Source of the DNA: an uncultured Nitrospirota bacterium
GTDB lineage: Bacteria > Nitrospirota > Nitrospiria > Nitrospirales > UBA8639
Reading direction: 5' to 3'
Length of the DNA: 64,000 nucleotides
Assembly: GCA_937139405.1 (NCBI GenBank)
Contig: CAKZPV010000032.1
Coordinates: forward strand, 186,001-250,000
A program made the translations under genes and the position numbers. Below, one piece after another: positions 28,258-42,885 of this stretch (the first letter of the stretch is position 1; every line of letters starts with the position of its first letter). Under the pieces are notes generated by a model. The model worked only from the letters and a program-made list of their open reading frames with translations. It was not told the DNA's origin and ran no database searches.

Positions 28258-28596
28258 CATTTCTTTTCCCTGTTTTTCCTATTTTGTACCCCACACAATT
28301 CGGTCTTTCCTTATTTTAAATGTGAGACCGTATATTCTAAAAGGGATGAGAACACCATACCTGAGAAAATTACTCTACCTATTCTCGAATAGTACAAGAA
28401 AGCAATTCTGTTATGCCTGACTTGAAAAACGCAACCAGATGAATTTTCTCAGAACAAAGAGTTTTGACAATTTCAGTCATGAATGCAACTGAGGATTACA
28501 TCGCCTCTCTCATCAAAAGTATGCGTAACGTCTTTCAAGAACTTCTTCTTCCTCAAAGATTATCACCACTCCAATAACCTTCATCACAATCAACTT
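28258..28596. other. intergenic region between dapF and hrpB
   Basis: About 340 bases, AT-rich. A longer in-frame start for the helicase exists at 28483, but the extra residues look non-conserved. No RNA gene or clear terminator was seen. Confidence 0.4.
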
Positions 28597-31110
28597 ATGC
28601 AAGTAGAACGCCTTCCCATTGTCAACATCATCCCTCAGCTACAAAGAATTCTCAGTGAGCACTCTCTCGCCCTTCTGACAGCAGAGCCAGGAGCAGGGAA
28701 AACCACTCAAATACCTTTGGCTCTCCTCAAAGAATCCTGGTTAGATTCAAAAAAGATTATCATGTTGGAACCGCGAAGATTAGCCGCGCGTACAGCAGCA
28801 AATCACATGGCCAGGTTGCTCGGGCAATCCGTCGGAGAGACAGTGGGGTACCGTACGCGATTAGATACAAAGATAAGCTCAAGTTCGAAGATCGAGGTCG
28901 TGACGGAAGGGATTCTCACGCGCATCCTTCAACATGATCCTTCACTGAATGATTACGGCCTTGTTATTTTTGACGAATTTCATGAACGAAATCTTCAAGG
29001 CGATCTGGGTTTGGCTTTGACCCTTCAGACTCAATTAGTCTTTCGCACTAACCTTCGCCTCTTGATCATGTCCGCCACTCTAGACACACGAACTCTCTCT
29101 CTACAACTGAAGCAAGCACCTGTGATTACGTGCAAAGGAAGAGCTTTTCCAGTTAGCACACGTTACATAGGAACATTCCAAAGACGAGAGTTTCCCCAAC
29201 AAGTCGCCAGAGCCATCCAGCAACTCTTGAAAACTGAACAGGGTAATATCTTGGTCTTCCTCCCGGGATCCCGAGAAATCCGACGAGTGGAGCAGCAACT
29301 CTCAGCCTTTTCCCTTCCCAAATATATTCTGATTGCGTCCCTTTATGGGAACCTCTCTCCTCAGGCACAAGATCAAGCTATTCTTCCACCACCAACTGGA
29401 TGGCGAAAAGTCGTTCTGTCGACCAATATTGCGGAAACCAGCCTCACGATTGAGGGCATTCGCATCGTCTTGGATTCGGGTCTCATGCGAGTTCCAAGAT
29501 TCGACGTGAAAAGCGGAATGAGTCGGTTAACCACCATACCGATCTCTCAACAATCTGCTGAACAACGCCGTGGCCGCGCCGGACGGCTTGAATCTGGTCT
29601 ATGCGTACGCTGTTGGCCAGAAGCATCACAAGGAACATTGTCTCCTCGAACTCGACCTGAAATTCTGAATGCTGACCTCATGTCCTTCGCATTGGAATTA
29701 GGCATTTGGGGCATTCACGATCCCATGGAACTTTTCTGGCTTGACCCACCGCCTGCGGGTGCCTTCGCTCAAGCCTGTCAGCTTCTTCAGTCCCTGGGTG
29801 CATTCGATAAAGAAAATTGCATAACAGAGCATGGCAGAACAATGTCAGAACTGCCACTACATCCACGACTTGCACACATGGTTCTCAAAAGCACACAACA
29901 TGCTCTTGGATCCTTAGCTTGTGATATCGCAGCAATACTAAGCGAAGGGGATCTCTTTACTAAAAGATCGGTTGGGACAACACAGACAGATCTTCGAACG
30001 ATCGTGGAAGCCTACTATCAACAGACGCATTCTGAGAAAACGGTTGGGATTGTACAACGCATCAAACAATCCTCGCACGCCTGGCAGCGAACTCTTCGTC
30101 TAACCCAATCTGATCCTGAATCAGATCACATTGAACAGATCGGGATCCTCTTAAGCGCTGCCTACCCCGACCGTATCGCCCAACGGCAATCCGACGGAAG
30201 TCGACGGTATAAGCTGGCCAATGGCCGATTCGCTCGTTTTTTTCAGCCAAATCCGTTGGAGCATGAGGAATACCTGGTCATTATTCATTTAAATGGGGCA
30301 CAACCAGTTTCCCTAATATCCATAGCTACGCCACTTTCTCATAAGGATCTTATGAAACATTGCGTCCATCTCATCCAGACACAAGAGCATGTGAGTTGGG
30401 ACGAAACAACAGAGTCCGTGGCCGCACAACGAGAAGAACGATTGGGAGCACTCATTCTGAGCAAGAGTCGGTTACACCAGCCCAACTCTGATTTTCTTCT
30501 GACAGCACTCCTGAATGGCATTCAACAGAAAGGGCTGACCTGTCTTTCCTGGACGAAGGGTCAACAAAATTGGCAAGCCCGCGTCAATTTCCTTCATCGA
30601 GTCATGCCTCAAGAGATGGACTGGCCGGATGTGACAGATGAAACCTTACTCAACACAATTGAAACATGGTTGGCACCATATCTCTCGAACATATCAAGTC
30701 TCGTTCAATTACAAGGAATAGACCTAACCTGGCCGCTTCAGGCTCATCTTTCGCAAGAACAACAGCACACTCTTAACACATTAGCACCAACTCATCTCAT
30801 CGTTCCTACAGGATCTCAGATTGCCCTAGATTATTCTTCGAGCGAGATCCCAATTTTGGCAGTTCGCCTGCAAGAAGTTTTCGGGATGACCACAACACCG
30901 ACCCTGGCCAATGGTCAAATCCCTGTCCTGATTCATTTGCTCTCGCCTGCCCAACGGCCGGTTCAAGTCACACAAGATCTCAAGAGTTTCTGGCAAACGG
31001 GATATGCAGAAGTCAAAAAAGAACTCAGAGGCCGTTACCCAAAACATTTCTGGCCTGATGATCCTCTTCAAGCCCCACCTACGCGAGGCAAAAAAAATAC
31101 CCGCCGTTAG
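28597..31110 (+). CDS. hrpB: ATP-dependent RNA helicase HrpB
   Basis: An 837-residue DEAH/RHA-type helicase. From the ATG at 28597 the motifs appear in order: Walker A in AEPGAGKTTQIP (about 30-40), LEPRRLAARTAA, DEFHER (motif II, the HrpB form of DEAH), SATLD, then STNIAETSLTIEGI and QRRGRAGR. HA2 and the HrpB-specific C-terminal region follow (GRYPKHFWPDDPLQA near the end). Known HrpB proteins have about this length. An upstream ATG at 28483 would add 38 residues without motifs. The RNA target is unknown. Confidence 0.93.
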   Translation: MQVERLPIVNIIPQLQRILSEHSLALLTAEPGAGKTTQIPLALLKESWLDSKKIIMLEPRRLAARTAANHMARLLGQSVGETVGYRTRLDTKISSSSKIEVVTEGILTRILQHDPSLNDYGLVIFDEFHERNLQGDLGLALTLQTQLVFRTNLRLLIMSATLDTRTLSLQLKQAPVITCKGRAFPVSTRYIGTFQRREFPQQVARAIQQLLKTEQGNILVFLPGSREIRRVEQQLSAFSLPKYILIASLYGNLSPQAQDQAILPPPTGWRKVVLSTNIAETSLTIEGIRIVLDSGLMRVPRFDVKSGMSRLTTIPISQQSAEQRRGRAGRLESGLCVRCWPEASQGTLSPRTRPEILNADLMSFALELGIWGIHDPMELFWLDPPPAGAFAQACQLLQSLGAFDKENCITEHGRTMSELPLHPRLAHMVLKSTQHALGSLACDIAAILSEGDLFTKRSVGTTQTDLRTIVEAYYQQTHSEKTVGIVQRIKQSSHAWQRTLRLTQSDPESDHIEQIGILLSAAYPDRIAQRQSDGSRRYKLANGRFARFFQPNPLEHEEYLVIIHLNGAQPVSLISIATPLSHKDLMKHCVHLIQTQEHVSWDETTESVAAQREERLGALILSKSRLHQPNSDFLLTALLNGIQQKGLTCLSWTKGQQNWQARVNFLHRVMPQEMDWPDVTDETLLNTIETWLAPYLSNISSLVQLQGIDLTWPLQAHLSQEQQHTLNTLAPTHLIVPTGSQIALDYSSSEIPILAVRLQEVFGMTTTPTLANGQIPVLIHLLSPAQRPVQVTQDLKSFWQTGYAEVKKELRGRYPKHFWPDDPLQAPPTRGKKNTRR

Positions 31111-35458: not shown

Positions 35459-37789
35459 TTACACAGGGGCTTGATTTTGTAGCGCCACGGCCATCATCGC
35501 ATCCTCATTTTCAGTCGTGGTCATGGATTCACCATCATCGGATACGGTCGACTCCAGTTCTTGATCCTCTTCATATGTCTGGCGTACATCTAAAATCTCA
35601 ATATCTAACTGTGCCTCTGGGTATAACCTTCGTAAATCCCATTCGGTAATCCATCCCCGCACATATTCACGCATCCTTGTACTTGAGAGTTTTTCGACAG
35701 CTGAAACTGGTGGAGGATTCCAACTATACGCTGATCCGTGGAGTCCTCGAAGACGCTCATACAGGGCATCAACCATTTGGTCATAAGGCCGAATGAGTGC
35801 TTCACCCTCTTGTTCAATAAGACGGATTCCGTTGAGTGCTGCGGACGCAAGAGCAGTGACATCGGCACTCCCAACTTCTTCGCTCTGTGCCAGCATTTCG
35901 ATTTTTTGCGTATCTTGTTTTTCTTCCAGAACCACACTTTGAAAATCATCTGTGAGGGCGACAATGCCAGTAATTCCTGGACACACCGCTTCCTCCAGAA
36001 CTCCCAGCCAACGAGCAACTTCCGCATAGGATTTCATTCGCTGCTTAAATGAATACCGGCCAATAATTTCTGCCTCATCGATGAGTAAAATCCATCCTTT
36101 GAACCCAGCGGCTATCATCAATCTTGAGACGAATTGAAAACGATGCCACGCGAGATCTTGTGCGGTGACTTTCTCAAAAACATACGGGATCTCGGGTGCA
36201 CAACCTTGAAGATATTTCTTGAGTTGGCCATTGCTTAATGGATCCCCTGCCCAAAACCGGATGATCCGATGACTCAGCTCAGGATCGTTAATCATTCGTT
36301 CATACAAATACAACGTCGCAGCAAACCGCGAATCACAGCCTGAATCTTGTCGATGAACCCAATCATATAATTCGGCATATTGGGGACTTTGAAAATTCAG
36401 CTCTCCCGCAATTTCGGTTAAAGCATCCCCTTGTTTCCCAGGAACACTGGCATCATTCATTGCTGCTCGAAACAGAGTGGCCAGATTATAAAATGGTGTT
36501 TCCTTACTGATGACTATTGGGCTACAAACAAATTGTTGTTCAATAGCCACATGCTGCAAGGCTTTGAGAAGATGCGACTTCCCACTCCCAAATCCACCTT
36601 CAATCACCAATCCTTTAGTGGACGTTCCTTGGCAAGCTTGGGTAGACATTTCTTGCAATAATCGCCGAAATTTTCCTTCAAGATCTGGCTGGTGACTCCC
36701 TAAGACTTTCACGACATCTCGATTCGGCACACCAGATCGTAAAGCTTCCATTGTCCGTTGATGGCTGACATCACCATTGGCCATAGCCATACGTTCAGCA
36801 TGATGATCCCAAGCATCTGTCCTATCTTGTTCATTTTCAACAGCACCCAACCGAATTAACGCACCTAATGGGTTTTGATATTGCCGATCGCGGACTTCGT
36901 CCCAAATACGCAATTTCAACGCTTCATATCGACTGAGACCTCGTCGCACATCCGTCAGAAATTCTGGAGGAACGGATACCACTAACAAGAGACTTTCCAA
37001 TTCATCCGTTCCATCAATAAATTGCCGCAACATTTCATAAGCATCAAGCGTGGCAGACACCCCATAGTACAAGCCCTCGGGAGACGTAGGCTTTTTACTT
37101 TCCAGGCAGCGACTCAAATCCAACGAAACAACTAAGCCTGCTTTGCCCACGAGTCTCAACCAGCGTGACAACGAGGCAAACATATAACGGGCATTCGTAC
37201 GGACAATTTTTTGAAAAATTAACGCCTCCTTCAAGGATGAAAGTTGGCGCAATTCTCCGCATAACCAAGCCTTGACTGGTTCAGTCATAAATGGGCTTTC
37301 CGCTCCCGAGTCCATTTGTCCCAAGCAGAGGCGAATCATCGCCATCCGAAACTCTTGACACATATGCGTATCTCGATAAATGGCTCGTTCAAGCCAGCTA
37401 TTCAAATCTCGACGCAGCAACGGCTCCGCTCGCTCATTCATCCGAGCCACTCCTGACATCGAAAAATCTTCTTCCCCATCAGGAATGTGATACCCATTTT
37501 CTTGAAGCAATCGTCGTACAAATTGCGAAGCCAACTCATCCCATGGGACTCGACGAGCCACTTCATGGAAAAATTTATCCATCATATGAATCTTAGTATC
37601 TTTCGCGTCAATCCGAACACAAGCATACTGCTCCCTTTCAGCCAAACTCATCAATTGATCCTGTACCTGAGCACGATCCATATCGGAAGGGGTCACGATG
37701 AATTTGACCGACGATCCACCTTGCCCAACAAATCGCTGGAGATATTCTTGCTGAATCGTTTGTAACCACTCCTGAGGTCGTAACTCCAT
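35459..37789 (-). CDS. tandem BrxC/BrxD-like (DUF2791) ATPase, copy 1
   Basis: A 776-residue protein, last gene of a three-gene operon, with AAAGGAT before the ATG. Residues about 1-310 resemble a DUF2791 module opening GGSSVKFIV, but its P-loop lysine is lost (TPSDMDRAQ) and its Walker B strand is VVSLDLS. Residues about 340-740 are an intact module: EALRSGVPNRDVVKVLGS, Walker A GGFGSGKS (398-405), ISKETPFY, HRIIRFWAGD and Walker B ILLIDEAE (567-574). The Asp/Glu-rich tail is low-complexity. It is a clear paralogue of the product at 37891. BrxC/BrxD proteins are BREX anti-phage ATPases, but no PglX, PglZ or BrxL gene is nearby. Confidence 0.85.
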   Translation of the reverse strand: MELRPQEWLQTIQQEYLQRFVGQGGSSVKFIVTPSDMDRAQVQDQLMSLAEREQYACVRIDAKDTKIHMMDKFFHEVARRVPWDELASQFVRRLLQENGYHIPDGEEDFSMSGVARMNERAEPLLRRDLNSWLERAIYRDTHMCQEFRMAMIRLCLGQMDSGAESPFMTEPVKAWLCGELRQLSSLKEALIFQKIVRTNARYMFASLSRWLRLVGKAGLVVSLDLSRCLESKKPTSPEGLYYGVSATLDAYEMLRQFIDGTDELESLLLVVSVPPEFLTDVRRGLSRYEALKLRIWDEVRDRQYQNPLGALIRLGAVENEQDRTDAWDHHAERMAMANGDVSHQRTMEALRSGVPNRDVVKVLGSHQPDLEGKFRRLLQEMSTQACQGTSTKGLVIEGGFGSGKSHLLKALQHVAIEQQFVCSPIVISKETPFYNLATLFRAAMNDASVPGKQGDALTEIAGELNFQSPQYAELYDWVHRQDSGCDSRFAATLYLYERMINDPELSHRIIRFWAGDPLSNGQLKKYLQGCAPEIPYVFEKVTAQDLAWHRFQFVSRLMIAAGFKGWILLIDEAEIIGRYSFKQRMKSYAEVARWLGVLEEAVCPGITGIVALTDDFQSVVLEEKQDTQKIEMLAQSEEVGSADVTALASAALNGIRLIEQEGEALIRPYDQMVDALYERLRGLHGSAYSWNPPPVSAVEKLSSTRMREYVRGWITEWDLRRLYPEAQLDIEILDVRQTYEEDQELESTVSDDGESMTTTENEDAMMAVALQNQAPV

Positions 37790-37890
37790 AACAGATATCC
37801 TTTAGTTTGAAAATGGAGGAATACTTACCATGCTTGAGATTCACTCACGAACACCCGAAACATGTCCGAGCCAATTCACAAAATTGAATA

Positions 37891-40170
37891 CTAGGATGAT
37901 TCCGTCAATGCAGGCTGCAAAACTTCTTCTTGTGAATTTTCCAACTCAATATCTTCCGAATAATCCTGTTTGATTTCCGTTAACTCGATTTCAACTTTCT
38001 GGTTTGGATCTAAGCGCTTTAAGTCCCACTCAGTAATCCATCCTTTGACATACTCACGCATCCGAGTGCTTGACAAGCGCTCAATCGTCGGAACTTGAGG
38101 AGGATCCCAGCCATACGCCGCACCATGAATACCCCGGATTTTATGGTAAATATCTTCAATCAACTGATCATAGGGCCCTACCAACGGAATGCGCTCACAT
38201 TCGATTAATCGCATGCCTTGTTCTGCTTGTCGAGCCAAGACTAAATCCGTCTCTGAGCCGGTTTCTCTCAATTTTTCTGGAACTTTTTCCCGATCTCCCT
38301 TTTCTTCCAAAATGGCGCTCTGGAAATCATCCGTCAACGCCATCACCGCCGCCAATCCAGATTTATAGCCTAGATCTGCGAAACTCGATGCTTCAAGACG
38401 TCCCAACCACCGAGCGAGCTCTGCGTACGATTGCGCACGTTGTTTAAAGGAATATCGTCCCACAATTTCAGCTTCATCAATCAAGAGAATCCACCCGGAA
38501 TATCCAGCCGCAATCATCAGCCGAGACACAAATTTAAACCGCTGCAAGGCCATTTCCATAGGAGACACACGCTCAAAGCGATAGGAGGCATTGGCATCAC
38601 AGGATTTGAGATATCGTTTGATCTCAGCATCTGTCAACGGATCACCAGCCCAGAAGCGAATCATACGATGACTCAGCTCAGGATCATTTACCATGCGCTC
38701 ATAGAGAAACAATGTCGCAGCAAATCTCCCGTCAATCTCTCCGCCTTGCCGATGCACCCATTCATAAAATTCCGCATATTGAGGACTTTTAAAATTTAAA
38801 TCAGCCGCCACTTCTGCTAACGCATCCCCACGTTTCTGGGGAATATCAGCCGCACCCACGGCAGCCCGAAACATTAATGTCGGACTATACAGCGGAGTTT
38901 CTTTACTGATCACCACTTTGCTACAGACAAATCGGGACTCCAAAGCCGTATGTCTCAGTGATTCCAATAAATGTGATTTACCTGTACCGAATCCACCTTC
39001 GATTAATAATCCCTTGGTCGTCCAGCCTTTATGAATACTGGCTTGTGCATCTTCCAGCATTTGTTGAAATTTTGATTTCACCGTTGGCTGAGGGCACCCT
39101 AAAGCTTTGACGGCACCTGGGCTAGGCACACCTGCACGAAGTGATTCGATGACGCGTTGATGTTGAACATCATCCTTGCGGCTACCCACACGAGTCAGAA
39201 GCCGACTCTCTTCAAAAAATGGTTCAGCTTGTTCAGTGATTCGAATCATGGGCGCAAAAGGATTGGGGCGCGTTTTATCACGAACATCGTCCCAAATACG
39301 AAGCTTGAGCGCTTCGTATCGATTTAAGCCTAAACGTTGATCTGTCAGAAAAGCCTTTGGCGTGACTACAACCAACAACAATCCTTCCATATCGTCACTA
39401 CCATCGATAAATTGCCGTAACATTTCGTACGCATCCATCACTGCCGAAGGCGAATAGCTCAAGGACTTGGGATCTGTCCCCTTCTTCCCCATGAACGCTG
39501 AAATATCAATCGTTAATACCACGCCTGATTTGCCAAGTAGACGAACCCAATGCGCAAACGACGCAATCAAGTCCCGAGCATTGCTACGAGTCACTTTTTG
39601 GAATATCAGCAATTTCTTGAGCGCGGCCATTTGTTTCAACTCTCCACGGAGCCACGCTTGTATCGCGCTAACCTCTTTGGATTGACGCCCTGAAGGGTCA
39701 AGCTGAGAGAGACAGAGTTGAATCATCGCTAAGCGAAATTCGCGGCTCATTTCAAAGTCTTGGAACAAACTGCGTTCTAACCAAGAATTCACATCTCGTT
39801 GAAGAGTTGCTTCATCACAATTATTCAACGAGGCGAGAAACCCCCAACTACAGGCCTCACGTTCGTCAGGAATTTTACGATCATTCTCACGAAACAGTTT
39901 CTGAATACAGACAAATGCTAGAGCATCCCAATCAACTTGCTTCGCGATTTCTTGAAATAACAAATCAATGAGTTGAACCTTCGTCGTTCGAGAATCAGCT
40001 TCGATCGTGACAAAGTCTTCTTCTCGAGCTAACGCTCCGACCCCAGAAACCACAGCCTTGGTGTCTTCTGCTTCCTCAACCACGACAAACTTGACCGACG
40101 ATCCTCCTCGGCGAATAAATCCTTGGAGATAGGCGGCTTTAAGTACTTTCAACCATTCCTGTGGAGACAT
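37891..40170 (-). CDS. tandem BrxC/BrxD-like (DUF2791) ATPase, copy 2
   Basis: A 759-residue protein with GAGGG upstream of the ATG. It has the same plan as the product at 35459. A first module (about 1-310) has GGSSVKFVV but a broken P-loop (EEAEDTKAV) and VVLTIDIS at the Walker B place. A second, intact module (about 335-735) carries ESLRAGVPSPGAVKALG, Walker A GGFGTGKS (392-399), HRMIRFWAGD, Walker B ILLIDEAE (561-568) and GRYSFKQRAQSYAELARWLG. The shared C-terminal block LSSTRMREYVKGWITEWDL is nearly the same in both. Gaps are 101 bases to copy 1 and 79 to the helper gene. It probably oligomerises with copy 1. Confidence 0.85.
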   Translation of the reverse strand: MSPQEWLKVLKAAYLQGFIRRGGSSVKFVVVEEAEDTKAVVSGVGALAREEDFVTIEADSRTTKVQLIDLLFQEIAKQVDWDALAFVCIQKLFRENDRKIPDEREACSWGFLASLNNCDEATLQRDVNSWLERSLFQDFEMSREFRLAMIQLCLSQLDPSGRQSKEVSAIQAWLRGELKQMAALKKLLIFQKVTRSNARDLIASFAHWVRLLGKSGVVLTIDISAFMGKKGTDPKSLSYSPSAVMDAYEMLRQFIDGSDDMEGLLLVVVTPKAFLTDQRLGLNRYEALKLRIWDDVRDKTRPNPFAPMIRITEQAEPFFEESRLLTRVGSRKDDVQHQRVIESLRAGVPSPGAVKALGCPQPTVKSKFQQMLEDAQASIHKGWTTKGLLIEGGFGTGKSHLLESLRHTALESRFVCSKVVISKETPLYSPTLMFRAAVGAADIPQKRGDALAEVAADLNFKSPQYAEFYEWVHRQGGEIDGRFAATLFLYERMVNDPELSHRMIRFWAGDPLTDAEIKRYLKSCDANASYRFERVSPMEMALQRFKFVSRLMIAAGYSGWILLIDEAEIVGRYSFKQRAQSYAELARWLGRLEASSFADLGYKSGLAAVMALTDDFQSAILEEKGDREKVPEKLRETGSETDLVLARQAEQGMRLIECERIPLVGPYDQLIEDIYHKIRGIHGAAYGWDPPQVPTIERLSSTRMREYVKGWITEWDLKRLDPNQKVEIELTEIKQDYSEDIELENSQEEVLQPALTESS

Positions 40171-40249
40171 AATTTTCCCTCAATATCCTTTTAATCTGCT
40201 TCCCCTTGTCGGTTCCCCTTAGGGAAACTTAAACGGGAAGACAACATGG

Positions 40250-41119
40250 TTATCCTGCTTTGACAAAGGAAATCCCGTAATAAGTTTTTTCCCGTCCTCC
40301 TTGTGCAATTACGGTCAATGTTTTGGACACATCGCGAACACCCGTACTTGCATGGAAATTGGCACGATGGTGATTTTTCGTTGTAATCGTTCCGCTTTTA
40401 TCCAACAAATAGACATCTCTTCCAAACTCTTGCCGCGTATATTCACTGGCCTGCCAGGGCAATAAAGTCAGCAATTGATAGAGCTCCAGCAACGGTATGA
40501 CCGTCCCTTTCCCAACCAAATGTTTTCCACGACCAGCGACGACAATGGAATACGCCGTATAGAGCATTTCTAGAAAGGTCTGTGGTTTAAACCGTAGAGG
40601 TTTGTTTTGGACTTCCTTCAGCCGTTTGACAAGTACCGACGGGCGCAAACGACTTTCTCGCATACGATCGATAGACACAGCCCGTTCTTTATGTAAAATC
40701 TTCAAAAGAACAGGATAGGAAAACAAATACCCATCATGTTCATAGAGATTCACACCCATCTGTTGGGCTGTGGTGAGCAGTTCTTGACGAAAGTCATTCC
40801 CAGCGAGATAACTGGCTTCATCGAAGTTAAGACGTTCTTGCGTTTTGACAAAATCACACCCTAAGCCCAGCGTGGCTGCCTTGCCTTCATCCAATAATTT
40901 ACGCAGCTTCACAAGGTCACCGACTTTGGCCGCATCCTTGATTTTTTTAAACGACGCCATCACTTGCTTCGTCGTTTTCACGAGATCACCGGCTTCCGCC
41001 TCAATTTCAGCAAGCGCTTGCTCCAAACTTCCCGTTTGGGAATCCATCAGAGGGGGAGATTTAGTCTCTACCGCATCCAACAGACCTGTAGCCGATTCAG
41101 AATCGTATGACTCAGACAT
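40250..41119 (-). CDS. helper protein of the ATPase operon, unknown family
   Basis: A 289-residue soluble protein, first gene of the operon. The ATG at 41119 has AGGA five bases upstream; another ATG lies two codons earlier. Residues about 25-80 form a coiled coil with many Lys and Glu. Residues about 110-200 have GVNLYEHDGYLFSYPVLLKIL and a winged-helix-like RPSVLVKRLKEVQ. The last 100 residues include LYQLLTLLPWQASEYTRQEF and DVYLLDKSGTI. No catalytic motif is seen. Coupled order suggests an adaptor or DNA-recognition subunit for the two ATPases. Confidence 0.8.
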   Translation of the reverse strand: MSESYDSESATGLLDAVETKSPPLMDSQTGSLEQALAEIEAEAGDLVKTTKQVMASFKKIKDAAKVGDLVKLRKLLDEGKAATLGLGCDFVKTQERLNFDEASYLAGNDFRQELLTTAQQMGVNLYEHDGYLFSYPVLLKILHKERAVSIDRMRESRLRPSVLVKRLKEVQNKPLRFKPQTFLEMLYTAYSIVVAGRGKHLVGKGTVIPLLELYQLLTLLPWQASEYTRQEFGRDVYLLDKSGTITTKNHHRANFHASTGVRDVSKTLTVIAQGGREKTYYGISFVKAG

Positions 41120-41362
41120 ATCCATCCTATTTCTCAGAAGTTTTCACTTGGAATGTACCTTCCCCGTGGATGACGAAACGGTACAGATCAAAACCACCTG
41201 CCCATGAGGAATCATTCGGTAAAATTTCAGGACTTCTTAATATTTTCAAGGAATGTCTTCCAGAAATAGAGAAAAAAATTCCGCTGTTTTCATTGAATCA
41301 CGCTATTCGCGTAACCTATATAATCCTATGTAAAATACGTGGTCTAGGTGCAAAAAGAACAA

Positions 41363-42411: not shown

Positions 42412-42885
42412 ATGGAAGAAGTAAAGGATTTGTGGCTGAAGTTCAATCAGTATTCAAACAAACTAGCTGCAGCGCTAGGCAGAACAAGTAATATTGTAGG
42501 TGAGTATGGAGAGTATTTAGCACATCAATACTATGGCGGAAGGCTTCTTGATATATCAGAATTTAGCGCAGACATAGAATCTCCAGATGGGAAGCGATAT
42601 CAGGTCAAATCGAGAAGAATCAAAAGAACCCCTTCAACTCAACTAAATATTATACGCTCCTGGGATTTCGATTATCTGGTTGTGGTTCTGTTTGACGCAA
42701 ATGGTGCGATCAAGCAAGCATTAGAGGTGCCTGTTGAGGTCGCAAAAGAATATGGAACAGCCAATAGCCTCCAAAATGGATGTGTAATTACAATAACCCA
42801 GAAATTTTTGAAGGATAAAAGATCAATAGATATTAGTATTCCTCTCGGAGCCTTAAACAAATCAAAGGAGGAGACGGCCAAATAA
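42412..42885 (+). CDS. PD-(D/E)xK-like nuclease-fold protein (DUF6998-like)
   Basis: A 157-residue protein, clearly more AT-rich than its neighbours. Residues 28-70 hold a restriction-nuclease-like core: IVGEYGEYLAHQYYGG with Glu31/Glu34, then Asp54 in SADIESPDG and QVKSR with Gln64 and Lys66, matching an E...D...QxK active site. This sequence type is found in DUF6998 and related endonuclease-like proteins. No methylase is adjacent. It sits on a patch with a pseudogene and repeat copy C, so recent acquisition is likely. Confidence 0.65.
   Translation: MEEVKDLWLKFNQYSNKLAAALGRTSNIVGEYGEYLAHQYYGGRLLDISEFSADIESPDGKRYQVKSRRIKRTPSTQLNIIRSWDFDYLVVVLFDANGAIKQALEVPVEVAKEYGTANSLQNGCVITITQKFLKDKRSIDISIPLGALNKSKEETAK

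Follow-up and report, generated by a model that had tools for sequence, protein, structure and literature searches.

A helper and two fused BrxC/BrxD-family ATPases of Nitrospirales: motor of a defence-like cassette, probably put to new use

ATPases of the BrxC/BrxD type are common in phage defence. BrxC and the BrxD of Type-2 BREX belong to one AAA+ family, PF10923 (formerly DUF2791); in PMC12839542 BrxD is assigned to the ORC/Cdc6-like class, and its proposed role is to load the helicase BrxHI or to activate it. A partnership of a BrxD-like ATPase with a helicase is also found in Shango, which consists of a TerB protein (SngA), the ATPase SngB and the helicase SngC. Also compared were PbeABCD, in which PbeC is an ABC ATPase (PMC10853773), and the Zorya, Dpd and DISARM systems, whose ZorD, DpdE and DrmD models are matched by the SNF2 helicases of distant relatives of the operon described here.

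The window analysed here (64,000 nucleotides of an uncultured Nitrospirota bacterium) contains three minus-strand genes that the first-pass annotation had described as a helper and two tandem BrxC/BrxD-like ATPases separated by gaps of 79 and 101 bases, an arrangement that the ORF coordinates bear out (Table 1). ATPases A and B are 51% identical; the blocks LLIDEAE, GRYSFKQR and LSSTRMREYV that had been pointed out in both proteins lie in register along with the Walker A motif, and of the domains in A and B alike the C-terminal one alone keeps both Walker A and Walker B, as had been claimed for the second half. A profile search recovers PF10923 (BrxC_BrxD) in A with 109 bits (E 3e-31) and in B with 110.7 bits (E 1e-31), above the gathering cut-off of 22.2 bits, so both are members of this already known ATPase family; the helper has no Pfam or PADLOC family. 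The neighbours of the operon in the window are a sensor histidine kinase, which begins 426 bases beyond ATPase B, a response regulator and an SDR-like gene. Scans for promoters and terminators scored below the shuffled mean and do not delimit the ends of the operon. Between the SDR-like gene and a 285-aa gene lies a gene for a DUF6998 protein (window 42412-42885), in place of which relatives carry a different small gene; it looks like a recent replacement.

Table 1. Features of the ATPase operon and of the adjoining signalling genes (window positions)
Feature	Position	Strand	Remarks
Helper, 291 aa	40250..41125	-	ORF, ATG start
ATPase A, 759 aa	37891..40170	-	ATG start; fused pseudo-ATPase and ATPase, BrxC/BrxD family
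N-half of ATPase A, approximately residues 1-315	39226..40170	-	BrxD-like domain without Walker A; GG[AS]xVK[FV] conserved instead
C-half of ATPase A, approximately residues 330-745	37936..39183	-	BrxD-like domain, predicted active
Walker A of ATPase A, GGFGTGKS, residues 392-399	38974..38997	-	
Walker B of ATPase A, LLIDEAE	38467..38487	-	
ATPase B, 776 aa	35459..37789	-	ATG start; tandem paralogue of A, same two-domain build
C-terminal Walker A of ATPase B	36575-36598	-	
C-terminal Walker B of ATPase B	36068-36088	-	
Sensor histidine kinase, 577 aa	33299..35032	-	Tll0287-like domain, CVNCH c-haem motif; candidate operon member
Stand-alone response regulator, 149 aa	32820..33269	-	candidate operon member

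The operon had been thought not to belong to BREX, and this is upheld: PglZ (PF08665) has zero matches in the whole genome in a search that detected its positive controls, the BrxD equivalog scores 90.4 and 77.8 bits for the two ATPases with a cut-off of 350, and the BrxC equivalog scores 22.8 bits with a cut-off of 400, against B only. No PglX methyltransferase occurs among the window proteins scanned, which represent part of the window's ORFs. The accompanying statement that the window has no helicase was wrong, since an HrpB RNA helicase is encoded at 28483-31110, but this is an ordinary type and not a BREX helicase. BREX membership is therefore rejected on the absence of PglZ and the low equivalog scores; the window ATPases share with BrxD and BrxC the AAA+ family and, in their C-terminal halves, the Walker motifs, but BrxD and BrxC are single-domain proteins, whereas each window ATPase has two domains, one of them inactive, and no PglZ or other BREX gene adjoins. 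Shango membership is likewise rejected: the SngB model matches the window ATPases at 56-57 bits, but neither TerB nor an SngC-like helicase lies beside them (TerB is matched just once in the genome, on a separate contig, C45), and the operon differs in its helper and in its paired inactive and active ATPases. Membership in PbeABCD, which would call for a CxC-type ABC ATPase (PbeC) and a DndE-like PbeD, is rejected because the ATPases are BrxD-like AAA+ proteins and no Pbe model is among the PADLOC matches. The likeness to Zorya, Dpd and DISARM concerns the helicase only, and the window operon carries none of that helicase.

The family domain is present twice in each of the ATPases, with two and three stretches matched by PF10923. 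In the aligned N-terminal halves the P-loop is absent, a GG[AS]xVK-type sequence stands in its place and Walker B is mostly reduced to its Asp (LDI), while FGxGKSH and a Walker B with a final DE are found in every aligned C-terminal half. Judged from these alignments, each protein is a fusion of two PF10923 AAA+ domains, of which the N-terminal one has lost its P-loop and the C-terminal one has kept Walker A and Walker B intact. ATPase A was modelled with AlphaFold from 39 sequences (mean pLDDT 87.5, pTM 0.86), and the model gave weak Foldseek E-values (best 0.0019); when the Foldseek PDB candidates were re-ranked with VIA, BrxC (9zll) scored Z 10.9 over 288 aligned residues with an rmsd of 5.0, tied with VchTnsC, Orc1/Cdc6, another BrxC structure (9zdx) and RdrA at Z of about 10-11. 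The predicted fold thus agrees with the ORC/Cdc6-like class without proving it. The helper has no informative relative in Pfam, PADLOC or PDB by sequence. Its predicted model (mean pLDDT 83) has an N-terminal tail disordered to residue 30, a long antiparallel helical hairpin (34-98) and an alpha/beta region; beyond these, a stretch rich in helices leads into strands, a part that may be read as winged-helix-like; fold searches with Foldseek and VIA returned generic helical hairpins alone and effectively tested the hairpin part only.

Loci with a related helper occur in Myxococcota, Thermodesulfobacteriota, Bacillota, Chloroflexota, Actinomycetota and other phyla, and there the two halves of the ATPase are separate genes of approximately 320 and 420 aa (the N-terminal half, for example, in L088-L108). 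The order helper, N-half, C-half is constant in the distant loci with enough sequence, and in a neighbourhood survey it is fixed wherever a locus extends far enough to show it, in keeping with the original suggestion that helper and ATPases form a unit. In 12 loci (L088, L090, L091, L092, L094-L097, L099, L104, L105, L108) the C-half is followed by a 185-aa protein (fam10) and an SNF2 helicase, both also present in the cut locus L139; some of these helicases carry a C-terminal Mrr nuclease domain and others end before it. Four loci (L100, L101, L106, L107) have a ResIII-type helicase instead of the 185-aa protein and SNF2. Across the split cassettes the helicase thus appears to be the fixed partner, with or without a nuclease, which by analogy fits the loader logic of BrxD and BrxHI. 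The window version has the same helper type, both ATPase halves and their order, but is fused, duplicated and without the 185-aa protein and the helicase or nuclease. For the cassette, the helper and the paired inactive and active ATPases, no name or description was found in Pfam, NCBIfam, PADLOC or the non-subscription literature searched; the SNF2-linked cassette is apparently unnamed, although a published name is possible.

Several loci depart from this pattern. A protein of approximately 500 aa is encoded 5' of the helper in the ResIII form (L100:1-493, L101:7838-9439, L103:869-2257, L106:4966-6471), the L106 copy of which has no Pfam match. In locus L098 an SNF2 helicase accompanies an ATPase that is fused too; as this locus sits on a long branch, its fusion may have arisen independently. 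Two g4 genomes have a split trio without fam10 and SNF2 (L119:3445-6677, L141:3252-6445), adjoined by a divergently transcribed ORF pair; within the window's family, G033 and G239 have the split trio alone beside such a pair, and that of G033 (L119) is Ski2-helicase-like in our reading of its sequence. The apparent opposite-strand gene family 18 of the GC-rich loci was rejected, since tblastn showed its members to be antisense ORFs over the ATPase-C gene.

In a tree of C-terminal halves the fused proteins of the window's family form one clade (100/100) next to the split forms linked to SNF2; A, B, the third copy and the single copies are each a clade of their own inside it; the helper tree agrees, with the family as one clade (100/100). 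These topologies show one fusion, an early duplication from which the third copy arose, and subsequently a tandem duplication that produced A and B in g1, g5, g6 and g9. The third fused paralogue (867 aa) is on the same contig but beyond the window, at a distance of approximately 31-35 kb from the operon. A 246-aa gene directly upstream of it (L040:11138-11878) has a weak transcriptional-regulator-like match below the cut-off; as a conserved partner of the third copy it was rejected, since only g1 and g9 have it among the genomes compared. ATPase copies are present in 20 of the 20 other genomes of the genus (ATPase A with 82-91% identity where found) and the helper in 18; the assemblies of the remaining two are fragmented. 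ATPase relatives extend to most genera of this family of Nitrospirales, and sampling of further families of the order found none; of 396 Nitrospirota genomes, 16 have the helper, 14 of them in the window's family. Helper, A and B are all missing from the near-complete genomes of g2 and of two of the three g5 members (the two g5 genomes retain the third copy only), so the function is not indispensable in the family. The named relatives are Nitrospirales MAGs, and viral contigs and plasmids yielded no relatives at the sensitivity used; with the vertical tree and conserved synteny, this led to rejection of a mobile-element origin for the window copy. One MAG labelled Nitrospinota (L085) has a Nitrospirales-type fused ATPase with the kinase pair, and because it groups inside the window's family, the label is probably wrong.

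Where synonymous sites are unsaturated, dN/dS of the helper, A and B is 0.034-0.065, below that of the kinase (0.11) and of the SDR-like gene (0.13). That the operon is a decaying remnant of a defence cassette, as the missing helicase and fam10 and a stop codon in the helper of one MAG (G027) could suggest, is highly improbable given these ratios, the conserved catalytic motifs and the retention of three paralogues across genera. That the genes are core, change slowly and keep their active site favours a cellular function over fast-turnover defence or decay. Comparative analysis identifies the operon as the ATPase module of a wider cassette, inherited vertically and under strong purifying selection in one family of Nitrospirales.

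The fam10 protein is absent from the window genome and from six other genomes with the fused unit, although the same query does detect it in two split-cassette genomes (G091 and G268); by these searches both it and the helicase are gone from the Nitrospirales fused form. It is unlikely, but conceivable, that the operon is a still-active defence system to which a host enzyme supplies the helicase or nuclease in trans: nearly all split-ATPase relatives with enough sequence adjoin a helicase, several of them with the Mrr nuclease; close relatives of the split cassette are common to Bacillota, Thermodesulfobacteriota, Myxococcota and Nitrospirota, a spread over four phyla like that of mobile defence genes; and the genome has one strong SNF2 match, a 1178-aa protein 175 kb away with 36% identity over the helicase core, the CxC...CxxH N-terminus of which we read as SWIM-type. 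This SNF2 protein was rejected as a dedicated partner because it is not co-distributed with the operon: the near-complete, operon-bearing G025 and G026 lack it, while it occurs in relatives that have no operon; moreover, the core distribution, slow evolution and lack of plasmid or viral copies are unlike those of defence genes. The initial suggestion of a possible defence role therefore fits the ancestral cassette better than the Nitrospirales genes, which are core, slow-evolving and without an effector.

In all genera of the fused clade for which this part is sequenced, the kinase and response regulator come after the ATPase gene, with the kinase 9-34 bases past the single ATPase gene in g3, g7 and g8 and 400-700 bases away in g1 and g5. 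This adjacency is suggestive only, because the whole region is syntenic between the genera, and could be mere synteny. In g7-g8 the kinase orthologues are shorter and apparently without the Tll0287-like domain, so a haem sensor has probably been gained or lost beside the operon. The AAA+ complex could be a signalling or stress machine, the output of the kinase and response regulator in, for example, transcription or membrane/redox processes rather than DNA processing; the pairing of these genes with the ATPase gene and the response regulator itself, which is 96-97% conserved and, having no output domain, must act through a partner protein, speak for such a role. It is nonetheless quite unlikely, given that synteny is general in the region, that no kinase lies directly beside the third paralogue and that the kinase varies much more than the ATPases do.

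The best explanation, to which we give a probability of roughly one half, is that a domesticated ATPase module now functions as a chromosomal DNA-associated AAA+ machine; the origin of the module is well supported, and its present function we infer. From a cassette of helper, Walker-less ATPase, active ATPase and then helicase, the two ATPase genes have become fused, the helicase and 185-aa protein are missing, and the fused gene was then duplicated. The fused protein may assemble into an ORC/Cdc6-type AAA+ oligomer, either a ring or a dimer, with inactive and active domains in alternation; the helper, with its coiled-coil hairpin and winged-helix-like region, may be an adaptor to DNA or to a partner; and ATP hydrolysis by the C-terminal halves may load or remodel a complex on chromosomal DNA, as proposed for BrxD and BrxHI. 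The Nitrospirales form would then be a BrxD-type loader without a helicase, which, its own helicase being gone, would serve a chromosomal function in trans, and the adjoining kinase and response regulator would probably set its activity or expression. Doubtful, though worth stating, is the stronger version in which a mobile defence-type ORC/Cdc6-like module has become a two-component-controlled chromosomal machine with alternating subunits, a bacterial counterpart of a complex for origin recognition or helicase loading, fixed in the core genome of the genus and of most of the family.

Because the module is a permanent part of the chromosome and the DNA-attacking parts are absent, the motor of a defence-like cassette has probably been put to new use. 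In the window operon the ATPase module occurs alone, with its domains covalently linked and with no nuclease or methylase, so its core activity is directly open to study. Its relatives define an apparently unnamed cassette of helper, ATPases and SNF2-nuclease over several phyla, and the Nitrospirales branch would be a case in which the passage from a defence-like module to a core machine of the cell can be traced.
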